A stretch of DNA of 64,000 nucleotides from Lepidostoma basale (lineage: Eukaryota > Arthropoda > Insecta > Trichoptera > Lepidostomatidae), in the NCBI GenBank assembly GCA_022606425.2, contig JAHDVF020000016.1, forward strand, positions 1,952,501 through 2,016,500, read 5' to 3'. The translations under genes and the position numbers were made by a program. The notes under the pieces were generated by a model, which was not told the DNA's origin, made no database searches, and saw only the letters and a list, made by a program, of their open reading frames with translations. Below, one piece after another: positions 147-63,993 of the stretch. Each line of letters opens with the position of its first letter. Position 1 is the stretch's first letter.

Positions 147-1416
147 TTAGGTCCTTACATATGAAATTAGCGTTTTGCCGTACTGGCAACTGTGATCTCA
201 AATATCTTCTCTTTGGTTAGAAATTCCAAATTCAAATTTATACAGCTATTTACTCAAGTATTTGTGTTTCGAAAATTATAATTCATTTGTTTTTTCCTCA
301 ACTGTTTTTTTTTTCTTTGCGTCACTCAGTTTACAAAATGGAAAACTTGAAATATCGCGTTATTTACGAGTACGAGTTCCACCGTGGCACCAGTGCTGCA
401 GAAACGGCTCGAAGGATTAATGATGTGTATGGCGACGGTGCCGCAAAAGAAAACACATTGCGTTTTTGGTTCCAACGTTTTCGTTCTGGAAATTTCGACC
501 TGCAGAACAAGCCCCGTGGAAGGCCGGAGACCAAAGTTGATAATGAAGAATTGAAGGCTATTGTGGAAGCGGATCCGTCGCAAACCACGTCCGAGTTAGC
601 TGCAGGCTGCGGTGTTAGTGATAAAACTGTTTTAATCCACTTGAAGCAAGTTGGGAAGGTGAAAAAGCTTGAAAGGTGAGTACCTCACGAATTGAGTGAA
701 GCAAATCAACAAACGCGCGTTGACTGCTGCGTTGCATTACTCAACCGGCACAATAATGAAGGGATTTTGAATTGAACCTGTGATGAAAAGTGGATCCTGT
801 ATGATAATCGGAAGCGCTCATCGCAATGGCTGAACCCTGCCGAACCAGCGAAACCATGCCCCAAGCGAAAATTGACTCCAAAAAAGTTACTTGTGAGCGT
901 TTGGTGGACTAGTGCTGGTGTCGTTCAATACAGCTTTCTTAAATCTGGCCAGACGATTACGGCAGATGTCTATTGTCAGCAACTGCAAACCATGATGGAA
1001 AAGCTAGCTGCTAAACAACCGAGGCTGGTTAATCGCTCTAGGCCACTACTGCTTCAAGATAACGCTAGACCACACACTGCACAACAGACGGCCACCAAAT
1101 TAGAAGAGCTTCAATTGGAATGTCTAAGACATCCACCGTACTCTCCGGACCTTGCCCCAACAGATTACTATTTTTTCGAAATTTGGATAACTTCTTACAA
1201 GGGAAAAAATTCAACTCCGATGGGGCAGTCCAAACCGACTTCAAAGATTTTATTGATTCCCGTCCGAATGGTTTTTTTAGTAAAGGGATCGATGAACTAC
1301 CTATGAGATGGCGAAAGTGCATAGATAGCAATGGTACATACTTTGATTAAATAAATATATTGTATTAAAAAAAAATCAACTTTATGTTCCTCCCATACAA
1401 AACGCCAATTTCATAA
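147..1416 (+). mobile_element. mariner element, copy 1 (cecropia-like)
   Basis: A 1.27-kb mariner-family DNA transposon. The left inverted repeat starts TTAGGTCCTTACATATGAAA at 147. The right repeat keeps CAAAACGCCAATTTCAT (1398-1414) but lacks 12 internal bases compared with copy 2, leaving only the terminal AA next to the TA duplication (1417-1418; left TA 145-146). The transposase is dead. The subfamily label rests on resemblance of the protein to cecropia/SETMAR-type mariners. Confidence 0.9.
338..1350 (+). pseudogene. mariner transposase, inactivated (copy 1)
   Basis: The frame starts at ATG 338 (MENLKYRVIYEYEF) and ends TYFD-stop at 1348-1350, full length for a ~340-residue mariner transposase. 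The N-terminal helix-turn-helix region covers roughly residues 1-110 (FWFQRF, GRPETKVDNEELKAI). The D,D34D catalytic residues are recognisable: TCDEKW (Asp codon 782-784), LLLQDNARPH and PYSPDLAPTDYYFF. Damage: a TGA at 677-679 where Trp is expected after KKLER, a TGA at 773-775 where copy 2 has CGA, and a one-base loss in the T run at 1171-1176 that shifts the last ~58 codons into another frame. Confidence 0.9.
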
Positions 1417-3301: not shown

Positions 3302-4587
3302 TTAGGTCCTTACATATGAAATTGGCGTTTTGTATGCGAGGAACATAAAGTTGATTTTTTTTTAAATATAATACTCGTATGTTTATTTAATCAAAGTATG
3401 TACCATTGCTATCTATGCATTTTTGCCATCTCATAGGTAGTTCATCGATCCCTTTACTAAAAAAAACCATTCGGACGGGAATCAATAAAATCTTTGAAGT
3501 CGGTTTGGACTGCCCCATCGGAGTTGAATTTTTTCCCTTGCAAGAAGTTATCCAAATTTCGAAAAAAAATAGTAATCTGTTGGGGCAAGGTCCGGAGAGT
3601 ACGGTGGATGTCTTAGACATTCCAATTGAAGCTCTTCTAATTTGGTAGCCGTCTGTTGTGCAGTGTGTGGTCTAGCGTTATCATGAAGCAGCAGTGGCCT
3701 AGAGCGATTAACCAGCCTCGGTTGTTTAGCAGCTAGCTTTTCCATCATGGTTTGCAGTTGCTGACAATAGACATCTGCCGTAATCGTCTGGCCAGATTTA
3801 AGAAAGCTGTAGTGAACGACACCAGCACTAGTCCACCAAACGCTCACAAGTAACTTTTTTGGAGTCAATTTTCGCTTGGGGCATGGTATGGCTGGTTCGG
3901 CAGGGTTCAGCCATTGCGATGAGCGCTTCCGATTCGATTCAAAATCCCTTCATTATTGTGCCGGTTGAGTAATACAACGCAGCAGTCAACGCGCGTTTGT
4001 TGATTTGCTTCACTCAATTCGTGAGGTACCTACCTTTCAAGCTTTTTCACATTCCCAATTTGCTTCAAGTGGATTAAAACAGTTTTATCACTAACATCGC
4101 AGCCTGCAGCTAACTCGGACGTGGTTTGCGATGGATTCGCTTCCACAATAGCCTTCAATTCTTCATTATCAACTTTGGTCTCCGGCCGTCCACGGGGCTT
4201 GTTCTGCAGGTCGAAATTTCCAGAAAGAAAACGTTGGAACCAAAAACGCACTGTGTTTTCTAACAAAACAAAACGTTTTTTTTTTTTTTTCCGGCACCGT
4301 CGCCATACACATCATTAATCCTTCGAGCCGTTTCTGCAGCACTGGTGCCACGGTGGAACTCGTACTCGTAAATAACGCGATATTTCAAGTTTTCCATTTT
4401 GTAAACTAAGTGACGCAAAGAAAAAAAAACAATTGAGGAAAAAACAAATGAATTGTAATTTTCAAAACACAAATACTTGAGTAAATAGCTGTATAAATTT
4501 GAATTTGGAATTCCTAACCAAAAAGAAGATATTTGAGATCAAAGTTGCCAGTACGGCAAAACGCTAATTTCATATGTAAGGACCTAA
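3302..4587 (-). mobile_element. mariner element, copy 2 (cecropia-like)
   Basis: A 1286-bp mariner with both inverted repeats: TTAGGTCCTTACATATGAAA at 3302 and its complement ending at 4587. It is flanked by TA duplications at 3300-3301 and 4588-4589. The target is a LINE B copy, so the mariner arrived after that LINE. It is in the opposite orientation to copy 1, 1.9 kb away. Confidence 0.93.
3387..4397 (-). pseudogene. mariner transposase, inactivated (copy 2)
   Basis: Start codon at 4395-4397 (MENLKYRVIY), TYFD-stop at 3387-3389. Damage differs from copy 1. There is an A/T-rich insertion at about 4258-4290 after GDGAG, and a TAG in the Trp codon after KKLER, where copy 1 has TGA. A net 31-bp deletion near 3930 removes the first catalytic Asp motif (TCDEKW). 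A one-base gain in the T run near 3562-3569 shifts the C-terminus. LLLHDNARPH and PYSPDLAPTDYYFF remain. Confidence 0.9.
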
Positions 4588-14799: not shown

Positions 14800-15090
14800 A
14801 GAAACAATTTATAAATATCCATTTGTCTTTTTCTTTTTCATATACTTTGTATGTACAAAACTAACTTTAAAAAAAATTAAATTAAAAATCTGACATGTTA
14901 TGGACAACCGCTCCTTCCTCAGTTATATTATATAATATAATATTTTAAATATGTATCTTTATAATATAATATCACTGAGGAAGGACCGGTTGTCCGAAAC
15001 ATGTCTGATATGTTATTTTATTTTTAAAGTTAGTGTTGTATGTACAAAGTATGTAAAAAAGAAAAAGACAAATAAAACATCTAGGTACAA
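14800..15090. mobile_element. gamma fold-back element
   Basis: The left half (CATACTTTGTATGTACAAAA, then GACATGTTATGGACAACCG) is the inverted complement of the right half (CGGTTGTCCGAAACATGTCT, then TTGTATGTACAAAGTATG). The arms meet around 14930-14965. Each arm carries one hammerhead-like motif; the left one (14893-14930, minus) has ATAAC for GAAAC. The right side continues into AATTATGGCGAACATAGAAG, shared with the element at 54640-54690. Confidence 0.8.
14969..15011 (+). ncRNA. gamma hammerhead-like ribozyme, core intact
   Basis: In order: helix I strand ATATCA (14969-14974), box CTGAGGA, unpaired A, helix II GGAC-CGGTT-GTCC, GAAAC, AT, GTC, helix I partner TGATAT (15006-15011). Helix I is six perfect pairs and helix II four. 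ACATGT around the cleavage side is self-complementary, as in hammerheads thought to act as dimers. This is the most complete copy in the window. Activity is untested, and the single base between the box and helix II departs from the textbook fold. Confidence 0.7.
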
Positions 15091-15553
15091 CACAAATTAT
15101 GGCGAACATAGAAGAAATAAATATGCAAATTAAACCATTATTTTATTTAAATAGTATTTTAAATATCACTCTATCCATCTCATAATTAATCATAGGTTAC
15201 GACTTAACTCATGAGAACTGTTGCACTTTAAGCTCTAAATACGAGCTTTCAAAGTTATAATGGTGCTGCCCCCATTTAAGCAAACTATTACTTTGTCTTA
15301 TAATTCCTCGTTGAAGCAACTTCCTCTAATAGCACCATAACGGCAACCATTAAACATCGGATATTACCTTAATTACGTTCAAAGATTTATCTTCCATCTT
15401 TGATAAATTATCCAAATGCATTGCATATACAGGTCATAAATTCGGGGAAGCGAATAAATGTTTTTGACTACTGTAATTTCATTACAATACAAAAACACAA
15501 ATCATTACTGAATATTTAAAAAAATAACAACCTTATTATTACATATCACTTTT
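15091..15553. other. unassigned sequence
   Basis: AT-rich with no supported gene; begins with the outer part of the gamma element. Confidence 0.3.
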
Positions 15554-15760: not shown

Positions 15761-16560
15761 CTACACACTAGCGCCATCTATGAAGATTGGATTAAGCACT
15801 AAGCAGAAGATCTTTTTTTATTGACGCAATGTGAAAGGCTACCGCCATTAACGTATTGCTAGATAACGCCTGGAGATGTCACATCACTTTTCACATTTGG
15901 AGTGACATATCACTTTTGTTTGTAGGCAAGCAGTAACTGGGATAAAAAGTATTTGTAGAACTCTTAATAAAGAATTCGTTAGATTTTCCATTGTTTCGGT
16001 ATAAACGTTATTCAAGTACTTCAACATTATTAACTAAAATTTAAACACTGTTTTAATATCACAACCCAATTATTTAATTTCGATGAAATTATTGCGACAA
16101 CATTGATTTCTGCATCATCAGGTGTTCTCTGTTCATCTGTGGGCGAAACAGTTAAGGGCGACAATATCATAAAAATGAAATTAATATATTGTGTTACAAT
16201 AACATTGTTTTAAATTAAACAGTTAAAAATGGCATATTAATGAAATATCGGTTTTCAAATCGTTTTTTTTTTTAACAATGTTTATTTTCAACTTTGTACA
16301 CAACACCAGCTTTAATAAAAAATTAAAATAAAAAAAAACAAACATGTTTCGGACACAGAAGCCCCTCATTAGTGATATAAATATTATAAATTTATACATT
16401 TTTATAATTTCATGTATGCGGTCAGTTTTATGCTTTTTAAATTAAAAATAATATTTTAAAGTTCTTATTAGGGTTGTTTGGAGGGAATATACATACCTGG
16501 GCCACAGTATTCGATTAGGCCGAGATAACCAAACCGCAGAGCTAAAAATAAGAATTGGAC
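15761..16560. other. unassigned sequence with decayed hammerhead-like remnants
   Basis: A beta box CTGATGATGC occurs on the minus strand near 16114-16123 but without the GAAAC partner. A gamma-like GTCCGAAACATGTTT lies on the minus strand at about 16342-16356. No gene is supported. Confidence 0.4.
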
Positions 16561-21982: not shown

Positions 21983-22126
21983 ATAGTGTTTTAAATAATA
22001 ATTCAATTAATTTATAACAGTGTTTTAAAAGAATAATTCAATAAAACGATATGTTTTTAACAACTTACACTTTTGTCTTTATTTCGACAGCGACCGGTTT
22101 CGCCAAGCTCCCTGACATCGACAGAC

Positions 22127-22167
22127 CAGTCTGTCGATGTCAGCGAGCCTGGCGAAACCAGTCACTG
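22127..22167 (+). ncRNA. delta hammerhead-like motif
   Basis: CTGTCGA box, unpaired T, helix II GTCAG-CGAGC-CTGGC, GAAAC, CA, GTC. Helix I would be CAGT with ACTG. The box has U where hammerheads have A6. Its inverted twin is at 22088-22128. Confidence 0.45.
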
Positions 22168-22377
22168 TCGAAATAAAGACAACAGTGGAAATAATTTAAA
22201 AAAAAACATCGTTTCATTCAAATTATTATTTAAAATGAACTTCCATAAAGAGATTTCAGTAAAATCATTTGACAGTGTTTTTATTTAAACAGTTAATGAT
22301 GTTGAAATATCGAAGTGTTTCCTAATAAGATTATCTAATTTAAATGTTGGTATGTTGATACTTAAATTTTTAAGAAT

Positions 22378-41951: not shown

Positions 41952-41991
41952 AGCCAACCGGTTTCGCTCTCACCGAAGCATCTTCACGGTT
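41952..41991 (-). ncRNA. zeta hammerhead-like motif
   Basis: Minus strand: GTGAAGA box (C3 changed to G), unpaired T, helix II GCTT-CGGTGA-GAGC, GAAAC, CG, GTT. Helix III ACCGGT is self-complementary as in delta. Confidence 0.45.
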
Positions 41992-44665: not shown

Positions 44666-44889
44666 GTACTGATAAAGCAGCAGTTATCTCCGAATGCACT
44701 TCATAGGATTGGCAAACAGTAAGCGTTTTTTGGTTCTTGAGATGACTATTAGGCCTTTAATGTAGTACCGTCCTGTTTCTCGTCTACCACCACAACCGTC
44801 ATCACTTTCTTGTATTTGTGAGTAAATAATTTGAGTTTAATGTAAGATAAGACGAATTTTTTATGAACACTGTTTTCTACATAATAATT

Positions 44890-45430
44890 AAATAAAACGA
44901 TGTTTTTTAACTACTTCCACTTTTGTCTTTATTTAGACAGCGACCGGTTTCGCCAGGCTCGCTGGCATCGACAGACTGGTAACACTATTGTAAACTTAGT
45001 CCTTTATATACATACAGATCAGGGGTGGTAAACATGATTCTACACAAAAATAATCTTCAAATGTTTATGTAAAAATTTTCTGAATTTATTGGAGAACCAA
45101 GAACTATAACATATAATATTTAAATTCAGTAAAAATTTAAACAAAATTACCATTTTTTCAAAAATTATATATGAATATGTAAGATATAATAAAAATTAAA
45201 ACCCATTGTATTAAACACAAACCTCCAAGAATACCTGTAATACCAATAGTTAAATTCAGAAAAATTTTACATAAATATTTGAAGATTATTTTTGTATAGA
45301 ATCATGTTTACCACCCCTGATCTGTATGTGTATAAAGGACTAAGTTTACAATAGTGTTACCAGTCTGTCGATGCCAGCGAGCCTGGTGAAACCGGTCGCT
45401 GTCTAAATAAAGACAAAAGTGGAAGTAGTT
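44890..45430. mobile_element. delta fold-back element with hAT-like inner ends
   Basis: A large palindrome. The arm 44890-45095 (AACTACTTCCACTTTTGTCT, the delta motif, AACACTATTGTAAACTTAGT, CAGGGGTGGTAAACATGATT) is mirrored at 45235-45430. The delta motifs are 44938-44978 (minus) and 45361-45401 (plus). CAGGGGTGGTAAAC is typical of hAT termini, but no 8-bp duplication can be seen because the flanks are themselves inverted. Confidence 0.82.
45361..45401 (+). ncRNA. delta hammerhead-like motif
   Basis: CTGTCGA, T, GCCAG-CGAGC-CTGGT, GAAAC, CG, GTC. Mirror of 44938-44978. Confidence 0.45.
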
Positions 45431-45534
45431 AAAAAACATCGTTTTATTTAATTATTATTTAAAATGAACTTCCATCAAGAGATTTCAGTAAAATCATTTG
45501 ATTAACTGTTTTCTACTTTTGAGTTTATTTTTCT

Positions 45535-45590
45535 CGACACGTTTCGAAGGCTTTGCAACATCGTCATTGTGAGAATAATATAAACTTATA
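45535..45590 (-). ncRNA. eta hammerhead-like motif, decayed
   Basis: Minus strand: ATGACGA box (C3 changed to A), helix II weak (GTTGCAAAGCCTTC), GAAAC, GT, GTC, then GAGAAAAATAAACTCAAA as in the eta element near 35030. Confidence 0.45.
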
Positions 45591-48290: not shown

Positions 48291-48439
48291 TTTCTAGAAG
48301 TTTTATTATATTTTATGGGAATGGCATATTTCACCCTTCTAAGGCATTATCAAATGTTGACATTTATTGTAGAGGACATTTATTTTTTCTTGAACAAAGA
48401 TGTAAAACTTCATATAAAGTAATTCATACGAATGAAAAC
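48291..48439 (-). mobile_element. epsilon element arm
   Basis: TTTTCTAGAAGTTTTATTAT, then the motif TTGATAA..GCCTT-AGA-AGGGT, GAAAT, AT, GCC on the minus strand (48331-48361), followed by AGAGGACATTTATTTTTTC. U3/A8 box retained; GAAAC and GTC damaged. Confidence 0.55.
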
Positions 48440-49045
48440 GTCTGTTTTCTAGAAGCTTAATTATATTTTATGGGAATGACATGTTTCGCCCTTCTAAGGC
48501 CTAATGTGACTAAATTTCAGCTCGTTGCTGTTTATATACAGTAGTGAATGGAGCAGAATATGGTAATTAACGAAAATTGATGTGACTTCATACATTTTTA
48601 ACAAAGAATTATTTAGGTAGGTCCAGAAATATTGGAAAGTGTTTCTTGGAACTCGTTAAGACATTTTATGACAATGATTACATAGTTAAGGGATACTAAA
48701 TGATACAATATAAATCAAAAATAAGTTATTTGAGGTAGGACGAAATAAAATGTTTCTAAGAAAACATCTTCTTACAAATTGTTTACAGATGATTTTACAT
48801 ATTTCAAGGTGACTAATGATTCTAAGTATTATATATAAAACAAAATCACCATCCTGTGTATGTAGACTCAATCGATGTATTCTTTTCTTCTGCATTTGAA
48901 TCTGTTAATTACCATATTCTGCTCCATTTACTAGTGTTTAAAAACTGCAACGAGTTGAAGTTTCGTCACATTTTATAATGCCTTACAAGGGTGAAACATG
49001 TCATTCCCATAAAATATAATAAAACTTCTGACAAACTGACGTTTT
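48440..49045. mobile_element. epsilon fold-back element
   Basis: The left arm (48440-48575) and right arm (48899-49045) are inverted: TTTTATGGGAATGACATGTT against AACATGTCATTCCCATAAAA, and AGTGAATGGAGCAGAATATG against CATATTCTGCTCCATTTACT. Motifs at 48477-48508 (minus, first box lost) and 48976-49006 (plus, TTTATAA box). The 320-bp centre has no recognised content. Confidence 0.78.
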
Positions 49046-49084
49046 CATTCGTATAGATTATTTTTAAATACATTTTCTTTTTCT

Positions 49085-49544: not shown

Positions 49545-49930
49545 TTGGTTTCAATGTGTCTAAATCTAAAGTGATGGTTTTCGAGAAAGAAGAATGTATG
49601 ATGATTTGTGATATAAGTGCGATGGGCGAGAAATTGGGCATGCGTGTTTACAAGAGACGGAAAAATGGAGAAAGACATCGAAAGAAGGGTTGGTGCTGGG
49701 AATAAAATACATGGCGAACTCAAAGTCATTACTGCAAATAGAAATATATCCACAGAAGCAAATATGGCAGTACACAATGAAGTTCTAGTGCCAACCCTCA
49801 TGTATGGAAGTGAAGCTTGGAGCTGGCAAAGAAGGATGAAAGCAGGATAAATGCCGTAGAAATGAGATCACTAAGAAGAATGTGCGAGAAAACGTTGTAT
49901 GATCGAACACCGAACGATGAAATGGTAGCG
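49545..49930 (+). pseudogene. LINE B upstream part of tail
   Basis: VSKSKVMVFEKEECMMICDI, VYKRDGKMEKDIERRVGAGN, KIHGELKVITANRNISTEAN, MAVHNEVLVPTLMYGSEAWS, MRSLRRMCEKTLYDRTPNDE. Frameshifted; ends in fragments similar to a delta motif (CTGCCGAAACCAGTCGATG, 49931-49955). Confidence 0.8.
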
Positions 49931-50649
49931 AGCTGCCGAAACCAGTCGATGACACAAACAAGAACATTTGTGGATTTTAACTAAATATACATTTTTAAAA
50001 CAATTAAAAAATATATATATATTATTTAAGTTTATCGTCTTTTAAGTCGAGTTAATTACACCATTTATAACTCAAGAACGGCTGGACCGATTTTGATGAT
50101 CTTTGATTTGTTGGATTTGTCTCCGCCCCGAATAGCATAATAACTATTAAAACATCGGAAAAAATCACGAAAAAAAATTATGCAAAAAGTTCATTTTCTC
50201 ATACATTTGTTATGGAACAGTTTTTTGATGACATCTCGAGAACAAATTGACTGATTTCGATGAATTAAAAAATGTATACATTATGGATTCTGCAAGTTTA
50301 ATGAACTTAATTAATTTTGAGTATTAATTTAAACTTAATGAATAACTGAATTTAATTCAGTTAATAAGTTAACTAACATTATTTATTGATTCTGTAGTTA
50401 ATTATAAATGTAGATTTAACAAAATTTTCTCTCCGTCACTGGTGAGTATACCTGATTTTTACGAGAAAAACATTTCTGTTCTTGGTTTATTGTGAAATAA
50501 AACATTTTTGTATTGAAAATTCAGGATTTTTGCTTCTTGGGGCAAATCAAAAGGCTAGTAAGATGTCATATAAATAAATTAGGTAGCACGAGTCGCGTCG
50601 TACCCAGATTATTCTACAAAAGAGAACTATTTCTTCTTCAAACAATTCT
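49931..50649. other. unassigned, possible Helitron-like segment
   Basis: 50040-50110 (AACTCAAGAACGGCTGGACC, GATTTTGATGATCTTTG) resembles text common in insect Helitron-like or MITE sequences, and AAAGGCTAGTAAG occurs near 50550. I cannot fix the ends or show an empty site. Confidence 0.3.
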
Positions 50650-53447: not shown

Positions 53448-53660
53448 CCACTCAGCCACGAAGGCGACGACCTTCGTGGCTGAGAGGTAAGAGCTCTGAC
53501 TTCCATTCCGAAGGTTCCGGGTTCGATCCCCGGCGATGGCAGTGTGATTGTCACACTGTCTTTGGTCTGGTGTAGAATTCACGTGACAATAAAATGGCGA
53601 TAGATTGGCTACCTATCACATGTCATAAGAATCAACATAATAGCTAAAAAAATAAATGTA
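53435..53660 (+). mobile_element. tRNA-derived SINE (tSINE) with inverted head duplication
   Basis: A box-like TGGCTGAGAGG (53477-53487), B box GGTTCGATCCC (53520-53530), then CAGTGTGATTGTCACACTGT, GGTCTGGTGTAGAATTCACG, CACATGTCATAAGAATC. The first ~30 bp of the head are preceded by their own inverted copy (GAGCTCTTACCACTCAGCCA at 53438), making a hairpin at the 5' junction. Confidence 0.83.
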
Positions 53661-53694: not shown

Positions 53695-54268
53695 AAAAAA
53701 AAAAAAAGGTTGGGGACAGGCAACAAAGTGAATTGTGCACTTAAAGTTGTCATCGCAAACAAAAACCTATCAAAAAAAGCTAGAATGGCAGTGCACAATG
53801 GTGTTCTTCTACCGACCCTTATGTATGGAAGCGAAGCATGGAACTGGCAAAACAAGGATGAAAGTAGAATAAATGCAGTAGAAATGAGATCTCTTAGACG
53901 AATTTGTGGATTCTCTGTGTATGATAGAGTGTCGAATGAAAATATAAGAAGAGAATGCGGTGCGAATGATGGTGTTATGAACAAAATAGGATCATTAAGA
54001 TGGTTTGGGCATATGGAAAGAATGAATGAAGAAATAATGGTAAAAAAAAGTATATGTAAACGATGTAAATGAAACCAGAAATAGAGGAAGACCGAGGAAA
54101 ACGTGGCACGATCAAATAAATCAAATATTGAATGTCGGCCATATCAGAGAAATCGACGCGCGTGCATGACACGATGTATGAATGTTGAGGAACGAGATAA
54201 ATATGTCAGGAAAGAAAAGTGTGGCAGTCCATTCTCTCTGCCTACCCCTTCGGAGAGACATATAAATC
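53695..54268 (+). pseudogene. LINE A, right part of split copy
   Basis: KVNCALKVVIANKNLSKKAR, MAVHNGVLLPTLMYGSEAWN, EMRSLRRICGFSVYDRVSNE, WFGHMERMNEEIMVKK (frameshift at an A run), RGRPRKTWHDQINQILNVGH, RACMTRCMNVEE. The tail stops at CGGAGAGACA without (TTAG)n and abuts the gamma-prime fold-back. Confidence 0.85.
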
Positions 54269-54710
54269 AAATAGATATATTATTTCTTCTATATAAGCCA
54301 TACTTTGTGTTGTTATGATGTTTTTTTTTCTATTTTTCTTTTTTATGCACTTTGGATATACGAGTACAACACTTACATTAAAAAATAAAATTATATAGAC
54401 ATGTTTCGGACAAACAGTCTTTCAGTAAAGATACATTTTAAAAATATTATTAAATTGTTGTTGTTTACATGATCTGACAGATATTATAATATCTGTCAGA
54501 TCATGTAAACAACAACAATTTTATAATATATTTAAAAATATATCTTTACTAGAGGACTCTTTGTCCGAAACATGTCTGTATAATATTATTTTTTAATATA
54601 AATGTTGTATTTACAAAGTGTATAAAAAAGAAAAATAGAAATAAACCACCATAACAATACAAAGTATGGCGTATATAGAAGAAAAAATATATCTATTTGA
54701 TTTATAAAAA
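54255..54710. mobile_element. gamma-prime fold-back element
   Basis: A near-perfect 455-bp palindrome. Left arm TATAAATCAAATAGATATAT, CATACTTTGTGTTGTTATGA, GACATGTTTCGGACAAACAG; right arm the mirror ending ATATCTATTTGATTTATA. The centre pair CTGACAGATATTATAATATC / GTCAG is at 54475-54505. Motifs at 54403-54435 (minus, CTGAAAGA box) and 54550-54583 (plus, CTAGAGGA box) keep GTCCGAAACATGTC, but the first boxes are damaged. Confidence 0.85.
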
Positions 54711-56052: not shown

Positions 56053-57229
56053 TCCTGTCGACGTGTGGAGCTAGTCCTATGCGCTAGGAGTGACCCAGTT
56101 GATCTGCCTTGATACCCACGTGTGCTGTTAAGCGTTTTTATGTTAGCCGGTTGGAAGTTGGCTGATGAGTTGATCTGTGAATATTTGATGTCGGGAGGGT
56201 TGGATTCATTATGCATGACCGCCCGTCTTCCTAACTTCGTGTCAGAAATACTGTTTCACTCAAATTGTGCGGAAATCTGAGAAGAGATTCATCAAATTCT
56301 AGCGCGAAACTACACATTTATTAATTCATAAGAATGATAGCATTTGCTTAATGGCAGTGCACAATATTGAAAAGTGATTAAGATGTTTTGAAAACACAAC
56401 GTTTAAAAAAATATATTCAAATGTGAATTCACAAGACAAATTGATGGTGAATATTGAGGAAATTTGTATTTTTATTTTCATTGTTTACAATAAACTTCAA
56501 CCAAGCAATTTCAATTAACAACATAAGTACACTTTCATATAATATATTATATATTTAAAAATCGTTTGTAACGCGAATAAAATTAAACACTCAATGATAT
56601 TTCCCGAAACACAAACATACTTCAACAATATTAACTGTTAAAATCTATAACACTGTTAAAATATCACAATTTTTATAACTCTTTGTGAGTTTTGCGTAAG
56701 TAACTTTATCTATTTGGCAAAAGGTCCCAACTGCTTTTTTATGAACTTTACAGGAGAACAAAAATTTGATTTTTACATTATTTTGATTCTTTATAAAAAT
56801 GTTATTTGTGTTCGAAACTGTTTCTTTCAAATGTCAACTTACGCAGCATAACGTTATCTACAAGATATATCAGTAACTAAATTAAAAAAATATGTATACA
56901 TATTTTAAAAAAATAGGAGTTGAATGCATTTTTACATAAAAAAAATGTTATAAAAAAAAGTACAGCTCTAAAGTTTTGTCAAAACATAAAGTGTGCAAAA
57001 CTAATACTGATTTTTAACTCTATTTCACAAAAAAACGCATCTGGGACCTTTTGTCAAATAAGTACCGAGTTGTTTAAATAAAGGGAGAGAGCAAAAAGTG
57101 TATAAAAAAAAAATGTTATAACATTGTTGTAAATTAAACAGTTATTAATGTTGAAGTATCAAAGTGCTTCGGCGGAAACGATGGACTATTAAAAAAATCG
57201 TGTTTTAGAAGTAAAGTAAAAGAACTGAC
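56053..57229. other. intron start of the receptor gene, unassigned
   Basis: 56053-56230 is GC-richer with no motif. 56410-56470 carries the TATATTCAAATGTGAATTCA flank also seen at 40885. 57140-57175 has the TTAATGTTGAAGTATCAAAG beta-element flank, ending only ~50 bp from the receptor donor at 57229. Nothing else is supported. Confidence 0.35.
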
Positions 57230-57984
57230 CTTGAATTGGACCGCTTTGAAGAGTCGTGCTTCTTCCCCCCTTGCAGATTGGGCAGATCCTTCTGCCGCTT
57301 CTTTGTCTCCCTCCAGATTCTCCAGTACAATATACACATCACCGTCACGGGAACATAGAAAGCTGCGATAGCAGTCCCGAACGTAATATAGTGATTAGTT
57401 TCGATAAACTGAATGTAACAAGCGTTCGGCGGCACTGTCCTCTGCCCTTCTATGTAGGGCCAAGCGAAGATCCAAGGCGGCCACAGGAGAAGGCTTATGC
57501 CCCAAGCGCTGCCTATCATCATGGCCGCTTTCCCCGTCGTCCTCTTGGCCCTGTAAGTCAACGGCCTCGTGACGCTGAAGTAACGGTCGAAGCTGATGAT
57601 CAGCAGGTTCAGAACGGAAGCGTTAGAAGCCAGGTAATCCAGGGCCAACCACGTGTCGCAGATGTGCGGACCTAGCGGCCAGTAGCCCATGATGATCGAG
57701 ACTGTGAACAGAGGCATCGAGATCAAGCCGATGGCGAAGTCGGCCACCGCGAGCGAGAACAGGAAGTAGTTGCTGATGGTCTGGAGTTGCTTGTCTATCT
57801 TGAAGGAGATCATCACCATGCAGTTGCCGACGACCGTGAGCACGGAGAGGATGGTGGCGATGATGGCGATGATGACCATCTGCAGGATGCTGAAGCGGTT
57901 GGGGGGCGCGGCGGTCGCCGGGGGCGCGGCCGTGGCATTGCCCAGCAGCGCGCCCAGCAGGCCCAGCTCCTGGGACGTGCTCAT
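57230..57984 (-). CDS. mAChR-A: muscarinic acetylcholine receptor A-type, exon for N-terminus to TM5
   Basis: ATG at 57982-57984; 251 full codons plus two bases before the donor (AAG|GTCAGT, intron from 57229). This is a rhodopsin-class GPCR. TM1 is ~33-57 (GN at 53-54), TM2 ~70-93 (LAVAD), TM3 ~108-130 with ligand Asp116-Tyr117 in [12 protein letters not shown], and DRY at 133-135. TM4 is ~153-175 (WPP), Cys109 and Cys189 form the extracellular pair, and TM5 is ~199-222. Then [18 protein letters not shown] and KRSNS open loop 3. There is one N-glycosylation site at Asn16. The [20 protein letters not shown] signature is muscarinic; the short Ala/Pro N-terminus and loop 3 fit the insect A type (Gq-coupled, acetylcholine receptor at the plasma membrane). 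A high-GC island in AT-rich DNA. TM6-7 are not in the window. Confidence 0.93.
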
Positions 57985-58020
57985 GCTGGGCCCTCACCTC
58001 ACATCTTCGCAGCTGCTCAC
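57985..58020 (-). other. mAChR-A: putative 5' UTR part of the receptor exon and splice acceptor
   Basis: On the minus strand CTGTTCCAG (58021-58029) precedes GTGAGCAGCTGCGAAGATGT just upstream of the ATG. A 3' splice site there would make the start-codon exon an internal exon with upstream non-coding exons to the right. The pyrimidine tract is weak. Confidence 0.4.
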
Positions 58021-58604: not shown

Positions 58605-58643
58605 ACACGACATGATTCGGAGGATACCTCCATCTTCAGGTGT
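58605..58643 (-). ncRNA. alpha hammerhead-like motif, one core change
   Basis: Minus strand: helix I ACAC/GTGT (four pairs), CTGAAGA, T, helix II GGAGG-TAT-CCTCC (five perfect pairs), GAATC for GAAAC, AT, GTC. Followed by GTTTTTTTAAATATTC. The single A-to-T change after GAA probably weakens helix III. Confidence 0.6.
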
Positions 58644-62425: not shown

Positions 62426-62737
62426 ATTTATGCTCCAAAAATTCGTCTTGCAAGCTATGACATCTTCACTGTTTTATGGGATGCTACTTGGGCCTTTAAT
62501 GTGGTTTAAAGTTTCCCGTTGATTTCCACATTACTTATATACAAGTTATTTATAAAAAAATATTTGATTTTTACTAGTCAAAATGGTGACAAAAAACAGC
62601 GCTGTTAAAATGTATTACACTGTTATAATATCACAATTTCTTTTTATTCACTGAGAGTGTCGCGATAGCTGTTTTGCCAACAGATGTTGGCATCATCAGG
62701 TGTTATAATAAACTCGCTTTAACACCTGATATAACAC

Positions 62738-62773
62738 CTGATGATGCTAACATCGGTTGGCGAAACAGCTGTC
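62738..62773 (+). ncRNA. beta hammerhead-like ribozyme, core intact
   Basis: CTGATGA, unpaired T, helix II GCTAAC-ATCG-GTTGGC, GAAAC, AGCT, GTC. Helix III region ACAGCTGT is self-complementary. Helix I pairing to the flanks is weak. Confidence 0.65.
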
Positions 62774-62788
62774 CACCGAGAGCGTCGC

Positions 62789-62824
62789 GACAGATGTTTC
62801 GCCAACCGATGTTGGCATCATCAG
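62789..62824 (-). ncRNA. beta hammerhead-like ribozyme, core intact
   Basis: Minus strand: CTGATGA, unpaired T, helix II GCCAAC-ATCG-GTTGGC (six pairs), GAAAC, ATCT, GTC, GCGACG. Confidence 0.65.
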
Positions 62825-62850
62825 GTGTAACAATAAACTCGTTGTAACAC

Positions 62851-62886
62851 CTGATGATGCTAACATCGGTTGGCGAAACAGCTGTC
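62851..62886 (+). ncRNA. beta hammerhead-like ribozyme, core intact
   Basis: CTGATGA, unpaired T, GCTAAC-ATCG-GTTGGC, GAAAC, AGCT, GTC, GCGATAC. Nearest neighbour 62789-62824 is inverted, so a read-through RNA could also fold as one long hairpin. Confidence 0.65.
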
Positions 62887-62960
62887 GCGATACTCAGTGA
62901 ATATAAAGAAATGTTGATATTATAACAGTGTTATAAATTTTAACAGTAATAATGTTAGAG

Positions 62961-63559: not shown

Positions 63560-63895
63560 GAAGTGAATGCGGTGCGAATGATGGTGTTATGAACAAAATA
63601 CTGAAAGGATCATTAAGATGGTTTAGACATATGGAGAGAACGAATGAAGAAAGAATGGTAAAAAAAAGTATTTGTTTACGATGTAAATGGAACCAGAAAT
63701 AGAAGAAACGAGGAAAACGTGGCACGATCAAATAAATCAAATATTGAATGTCGGCCATGTGAGAAGTCAGAGAAGTCAGACACGATGTATGAATGTTGAA
63801 GAAGCGAGAGAAATATGTCAGGCAAGAAAAGTGTGGCAGTCCATTCTTTCTACCTACCCCTTCGGAGAGACGGCGTGATGGTTAGTTAGTAAGTT
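63560..63895 (+). pseudogene. LINE A C-terminal tail
   Basis: SECGANDGVMNKILKGSLRW, FRHMERTNEERMVKK (slip at an A run), GTRNRR, RKTWHDQINQILNVGHVRSQ, a 12-bp loss at the RRACM site, TRCMNVEEAREICQARKVWQ, SILSTYPFGETA-stop, (TTAG)n. Confidence 0.85.
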
Positions 63896-63954
63896 AGTTT
63901 ATTAAAAATGCGTTATTTATTTGTCTTTCCTTGTTTAGTTTTTACTATATTTTT

Positions 63955-63993
63955 ACACCTGAAGATGGAGGTATTTTCCGAAACATGTCGTGT
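63955..63993 (+). ncRNA. alpha hammerhead-like ribozyme, core intact
   Basis: Helix I ACAC (63955-63958) with GTGT (63990-63993), CTGAAGA, unpaired T, helix II GGAGG-TAT-TTTCC (two G.U pairs), GAAAC, AT, GTC. ACATGT is self-complementary. The element continues past the right window edge (TTTTTAAA). Confidence 0.68.

Follow-up and report, generated by a model that had tools for sequence, protein, structure and literature searches.

Introduction

Minimal type-I hammerhead ribozymes of Penelope-like elements (PLEs) were reportedly described by Cervera and de la Pena in 2014. The hammerheads of the newt and of Penelope are described as acting as dimers (PMC6155905, PMC7761336), and the role of the Penelope hammerhead for its element was still called a mystery in a 2020 review (PMC7761336). 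For PAc, a PLE of Anolis, it is reported that hammerhead residues C3 and G8 precede the start codon and that the cut falls 26 bp into the open reading frame (ORF); that cleavage occurs only with the protein added; that hammerhead mutants are without effect on insertion in vitro; and that PAc cuts and extends both DNA strands (PMC11167929). In the rotifer Adineta vaga, Penelope inserts are described in which inverted pseudo-LTRs (pLTRs) meet head to head at a palindrome, sometimes with a tail, and which have target-site duplications of 8-10 bp (PMC3846280). Finally, chrysanthemum chlorotic mottle viroid carries an additional A in its plus hammerhead, located between A9 and 10.1; this A is reported to lower the rate moderately, and a U at that position (U10) raises the rate 3-4 fold (PMC3705267). 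Against this background we consider a hammerhead-like motif in one arm of a fold-back element, together with its relatives in the whole 64,000-nucleotide stretch of Lepidostoma basale DNA that was analysed (the window).

Results

The motif in the right arm (A1R) of fold-back element A1 occupies 14969-15011 on the plus strand and reads directly as ATATCA-CTGAGGA-A-GGAC-CGGTT-GTCC-GAAAC-AT-GTC-TGATAT, 43 bases in all. As the preliminary description had it, and as direct reading confirms, the hammerhead parts are complete and in the correct order: a helix I of six Watson-Crick pairs (14969-14974/15006-15011), the core CTGAGGA (14975-14981), an extra unpaired A (14982), a helix II of four pairs (14983-14986/14992-14995), GAAAC (14996-15000), a two-base AT loop (15001-15002) and GTC (15003-15005), with the predicted cut after 15005. 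The type-I core CUGANGA...GAAA...UH is present in order (as CTGAGGA, GAAAC and GTC), plus one extra base at position 10. The motif has no stable helix III of its own, the two-base AT loop being unable to form a normal hairpin. Folded in isolation, the 43-mer takes exactly helix I and helix II as its minimum-energy structure (-6.5 kcal/mol; ensemble share 0.09), and A1R is the only one of seven motif pieces folded alone whose best fold is exactly both helices.

The six pairs of helix I had been put forward as the main argument for the motif, and this argument is not supported. The local chance of six such pairs is 0.0008, and of four pairs beyond two shared ones 0.008; a helix I of six Watson-Crick pairs is found in none of 1500 first-order Markov windows, which together yielded 39 matches to a descriptor that demands an exact CTGANGA, three or more pairs in helix II, GAAAC and GTH. 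Among the arms of its own family, however, the six-pair helix is private to A1R: A3, A2R and A2L have two contiguous pairs and A1L none, and the other families have from zero to four. The same exact-core descriptor finds five loci in the window (one of family A, one of B and three of D), against a mean of 0.026 per random window. With one mismatch allowed, the rows number 21, spread over 13 loci, where 60 random windows average 0.82 rows. Exactly one extra base lies between CTGANGA and helix II in every one of these 21 rows, compared with 17 of the 39 chance matches.

Covariance models from Rfam, the check that the preliminary description had proposed, list no hammerhead in the whole window at gathering scores, none when 2 kb or a slice of 61 bases is searched with E values as high as 10, and none for the copy at 16350 (A3). 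The sole Rfam match at gathering score in the window is tRNA-like, at 53470-53541 (+), with 39.5 bits. The microRNA and sRNA rows returned for the 2 kb were discarded; they lie below their gathering scores and track the long hairpin.

By hand, 31 loci were compiled across families. Similarity groups the copies into families A (five arms, A1R included), B, D, E and F, to which a looser family C can be added, recognised by its hairpin, GAAAC and ACATGT or ACATAT, with a worn 5' core. The window holds at least six families on one plan, namely CTGANGA followed by a single additional base, then helix II, GAAAC, a self-complementary helix III and GTC; in family E the core is CTGTCGA, not CTGANGA. 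Helix II differs by family (GGAC/GTCC in A, GGAGG/CCTCC in B, GCCAAC/GTTGGC in D, GCCAG/CTGGC in E) and is paired in most copies, B1 having lost most of it. In each family the bases that follow GAAA up to the cut are self-complementary (ACATGT, ACAGCTGT, ACCGGT), some copies being worn, and since this is a hammerhead without a helix III of its own, these bases would be needed for working as a dimer.

In family A, the left arm of A1 has a worn motif (A1L, 14892..14922, minus strand) in which GAAAC has become ATAAC and helix I is broken; A3, a single copy at 16342..16372 (-), has a CTAATGA core and helix II GGGC/GTCC; and the fold-back A2 (54261..54706) has worn motif cores in both arms. Family E forms the fold-backs E1 (22029..22271) and E3 (44881..45504), and family D a nested fold-back with four motif copies (CTGATGA-T-GCCAAC..GTTGGC; 62602..62946). 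An inverted pair of C copies, again with a worn 5' core, lies at 48416..49064. In family B, the copy B2 at 63959..63989 (+) reads CTGAAGA-T-GGAGG..TTTCC-GAAACATGTC with helix I ACAC/GTGT, and other copies are at 58639 (-) and 35560 (-); family F is a single copy at 41956..41987 (-). A repeat of about 100 bases occurs at 63800-63900 and in many other places, and B1, B2, A2 and E2 directly adjoin copies of it.

Whether the helices are maintained was judged from a plain MAFFT alignment of 13 of the 31 loci, drawn from families B, D, E and F; families A and C, some copies of D and E that are nearly identical (D2, D5 and 44974) and the divergent E6 and E7 are not part of it. An alignment of all families was visibly misaligned and was not used. 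In the 13-locus alignment, standard pairs fill 90.1% of 111 cells, against 22-52% in slid controls, and eight of the nine pairs have changed on both sides. Its covariation score was reached by 0 of 500 shuffles, which ignore relatedness. Helix II is paired in 100% of cells and helix I in 78.8%. Within family D alone covariation is weak, its score being reached by 27 of 500 shuffles. Compensating changes in helices I and II, expected of a type-I hammerhead and named in advance as a test, are thus found when families B, D, E and F are compared with one another; family A shows none among its own copies, and helix I is not kept there.

From the same 13 sequences, none of them of family A, a covariance model (R1) was built. 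It matches A1R at 14971-15009 with 20 bits (E 0.0019, a rough value), ranking directly behind 18 loci that belong to the families of the model, and at E up to 5 it does not find the other four family A arms, A1L among them. Part of the A1R score is due to the core sequence alone, since three of 12 pattern-picked bacterial or archaeal loci (L009, L016 and L008) reach a similar E (0.00025-0.0021) without both helices. Two weak R1 matches, at 49922-49947 (+) and 45532-45572 (-), with E of 0.012 and 0.16, may be further families. On the evidence of sequence, we conclude that the A1R motif is a genuine hammerhead-type ribozyme sequence and not a product of chance. The more general lesson is that a hammerhead overlooked by Rfam can be judged by sister families in the same 64 kb.

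Among genome contigs the motif pattern matched 12 times, where some tens would be expected by chance on a rough estimate. Both helices are present in one match only (L011); L016 lacks helix I but has 7 bp of helix II, and the other ten have 1-2 contiguous bp of helix II. L011, labelled a bacterial MAG, reads CTGAGGA-T-GGCGT..ACGCC-GAAACATGTC with helix I CCCC/GGGG, in a part where GC falls from about 0.6 to 0.4; in both L011 and L015, DNA of animal appearance seems to be joined to bacterial sequence, with bacterial ORFs at one end. This part of L011 is probably animal DNA in a bacterial assembly, and it gives a hint that the class exists elsewhere. The animal-like stretches with class motifs in these MAG records (L011 2001-6691 and L015 1-1800) are probable contamination and serve as leads only. 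In viral contigs, five exact 16-mer matches, none preceded by CTGANGA and helix II, were taken as chance, and four other motif patterns gave no match.

The fold-back setting claimed for the motif is confirmed, and its arms can be mapped. A1 (14822..15116) consists of two head-to-head units around a palindromic centre at about 14938-14959, its outer ends being set by the flanking repeat; the inverted arms pair 14821-14876 with 15018-15073 and 14872-14937 with 14960-15025. Arm against arm, self-BLAST gives 80.9% identity over 257 columns, and A1R against A2R gives 75.2%. The possible target-site duplication of A1 is 11 bp long, with one mismatch between its left (14811..14821, plus strand) and right (15117..15127, plus strand) copies. 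E3 has a perfect 12-bp flanking repeat (12/12; at 44869 and 45505); in E1 the repeats at 22017 and 22272 are about 10-11 bp long. These three, of eight loci, are the only ones with a flanking repeat worth naming; A2, E2, C, the single copy C1 and D have none. Random pairs score as high as the flanking repeat in 2 of 300 cases for E3, 7 of 300 for E1 and 19 of 300 for A1, the random windows being somewhat smaller than A1's.

The arms stop at set distances from A9, at 95 and 136 nt in A1, 90 and 135 in E1, and 88 and 134 in E3; by arithmetic, the ends are at 87 and 87 in C and at 92 and 90 in D. The surplus of the longer arm, set beside a PLE tail of 30-40 bp, is 41 nt in A1 (15076..15116, plus strand, in the right arm only), 45 in E1 and 46 in E3. 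This is reminiscent of the tail that one of two inverted pLTRs may bear (PMC3846280, PMC11167929). A2 has no such surplus and breaks the arm-length rule, with arms of about 154-161 nt from A9 and near symmetry to its ends. Of 10 pairs of same-family neighbours less than 1 kb apart, seven point outward, two are tandem and one points inward. The palindrome centre is variable, the cores being 53 nt apart in A1, 123 in A2, 7 in E1 and 391 in E3, and since it is not fixed within families A and E, a new palindrome seems to be formed at every insertion.

The base at position 10 is T in all 18 listed B, D, E and F loci, where with its neighbours it reads ATG. In family A the triplet is not ATG (AAG in A1R and A1L, AGG in A3); six family C loci have AATGCC, in a listing offset by one base, and the C copy 48463-48518 has AGG. 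From A9 to the cut we count 25 nt in A1R, B2 and B3, 27 in E and 30 in D. The reading frame that starts at the family E ATG is open for at least 20 codons in E1R, E2R, E6 and E7's neighbours and meets an early stop in E3R and E3L, which suggests coding from the motif ATG in that family. The unpaired A had been described as a departure from the textbook fold. That description needs correcting: the single extra base recurs in all the window's descriptor rows, and an extra A or U is known from the viroid hammerhead (PMC3705267). The extra unpaired base is a feature of the class, not an oddity of A1R.

Discussion

The reading that best fits these results is that A1 is an old Penelope-like insertion of two head-to-head hammerhead-bearing units, in which a live ribozyme would cut after GTC, and that this copy is now inactive; we hold it to be probable. 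The earlier assignment of the motif to the minimal type-I hammerheads of the Penelope kind gains support from the covarying sister families in the window and from a fold-back anatomy that fits paired Penelope pLTRs (PMC3846280 and PMC11167929). Inverted pLTRs joined head to head at a palindrome are what the fold-backs here look like, and E1 and E3 have the full anatomy of A1, unlike A2. It is on anatomy, not on a gene, that the putative Penelope link rests: no PLE gene (reverse transcriptase, GIY-YIG endonuclease) was found among the eight window ORFs scanned with Pfam. Other residents of the window are an exon-like ORF of a rhodopsin-family receptor at 57205-57993 (-) (Pfam 7tm_1, E 4.8e-47), presumably muscarinic from its looks, and two broken pieces of mariner-type transposase, one at 221-1306 (+) with Pfam HTH_48 and Transposase_1 and the other at 3548-3949 (-), recognised by its likeness by eye to the first. 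Both features that had seemed odd at first reading, the extra base and the fold-back, would be accounted for by the Penelope-like origin.

In a live element, the RNA would be cut after GTC, inside the 5' end of the ORF. Cleavage would most likely take place as a dimer, the ACATGT palindromes of two copies forming helix III, and/or with the element's protein. Since PAc acts on both DNA strands, cutting and extending each, its mode of insertion could yield a pair of units linked 5' to 5'; the rotifer paper prefers another origin of the head-to-head pair, in which an antisense template primes itself (PMC3846280). The A1 copy itself, to go by modelled folds, is probably a dead relic. The transcript of the whole element folds at -118.5 kcal/mol, and when the hammerhead is imposed the value is -73.2, so that the hairpin is favoured by about 45 kcal/mol; when the right arm is folded by itself, helix II is retained in the best structure and helix I is lost. 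In a modelled dimer the double hammerhead reaches -17.0 kcal/mol, against -13.0 for two monomers, and the best duplex is another fold, at -21.9. Little or no cleavage is to be expected of A1, because it has no tandem partner, has A at position 10 and yields a transcript that favours the hairpin.

A more tentative proposal, on balance doubtful, concerns why the extra base is there. Since ATG is found in families B, D, E and F and PAc is cut 26 bp into its ORF, we infer that the position-10 base may be kept because the element's start codon, A9-U10-G10.1 (AUG), has it as second letter. Ribozyme core and translation start would then be one sequence; the cut after GTC would part the start codon from the message, cleavage and protein synthesis would be mutually exclusive, and families without the ATG, such as A, would be non-autonomous. 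If general, this overlap would explain why Penelope hammerheads have an odd core, and it would allow the ribozyme's service to its element to be tested directly. We do not claim priority in print for either fold-back hammerheads or the overlap of core and start codon.

How well do other explanations fare? Long inverted arms, AT-rich and non-coding, and the near symmetry of A2 to its ends are what one would see in a DNA-transposon derivative, a MITE or fold-back element with a functionless hammerhead-like sequence in its long terminal inverted repeats. Such an element has fixed inverted ends and a common centre, but the arm ends here are unequal, with the right arms of A1, E1 and E3 the longer, and the centres differ within a family. 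Moreover, single uninverted copies exist (A3, B, F), and the motif is common to otherwise unlike families, all of which makes a transposon derivative unlikely. We consider it improbable that the conserved part is a hairpin and flanking box that is not a ribozyme, for example a protein-binding or reverse-transcription start signal of the element. The better preservation of helix II than of helix I would suit such a signal, as would the PAc hammerhead mutants that insert normally in vitro (PMC11167929); against it, the shared bases are those of the hammerhead core, helix I covaries in part, and self-complementary bases precede the cut. A non-LTR retrozyme, that is, non-autonomous tandem repeats of 150-450 bp with canonical type-I hammerheads that spread through circular RNA, would share the small size, non-coding character, low GC and type-I plan of these units (PMC7229834). 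It is improbable here, however: A1 is one complete motif with an inverted partner, units stand head to head and only two of the 10 neighbour pairs are tandem, and a stable helix III is lacking. Chance resemblance in AT-rich sequence, for which the privacy of the six-pair helix and the silence of Rfam might speak, is hardly tenable beside five exact-core loci in one window, 39 matches in 1500 random ones and sister families that covary.

Comparison with known systems

The Penelope-like insertion that we favour can be set beside each of the described systems. Animal non-LTR retrozymes are likewise small, low-GC, non-coding type-I units, but they are tandem repeats with canonical helices, unlike the head-to-head pairs here (PMC7229834). 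The chrysanthemum chlorotic mottle viroid plus hammerhead shares with A1R the extra A between A9 and 10.1, and its rate-raising base, U10, has its counterpart in the T that families B, D, E and F carry there (PMC3705267). Hammerheads of Penelope-like elements resemble the present class in their type-I plan with almost no helix III of their own, in the logic of the dimer, and in being scattered through animal genomes in many copies, some of them within pLTRs; the reviews describe tandem copies, whereas here head-to-head pairs predominate (PMC7761336, PMC6155905). PAc, from the Poseidon group, is cut 26 bp into its ORF, comparable to the 25-30 nt that separate the A of the ATG from the cut in intact B, D and E copies; the element ends near +111-118, with a tail, against about 88-95 and 134-136 nt here, and it has a known ORF and protein, unlike the units here, and family A is without the ATG (PMC11167929). 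The pLTRs of Adineta vaga flank a PLE gene, where here there are paired ends only; the rotifer inserts resemble the fold-backs of this window in their inverted pLTRs, in the head-to-head palindrome and in a tail that one arm may have, about 31 bp long in the rotifer, and their short target-site duplication has a possible counterpart here (PMC3846280).
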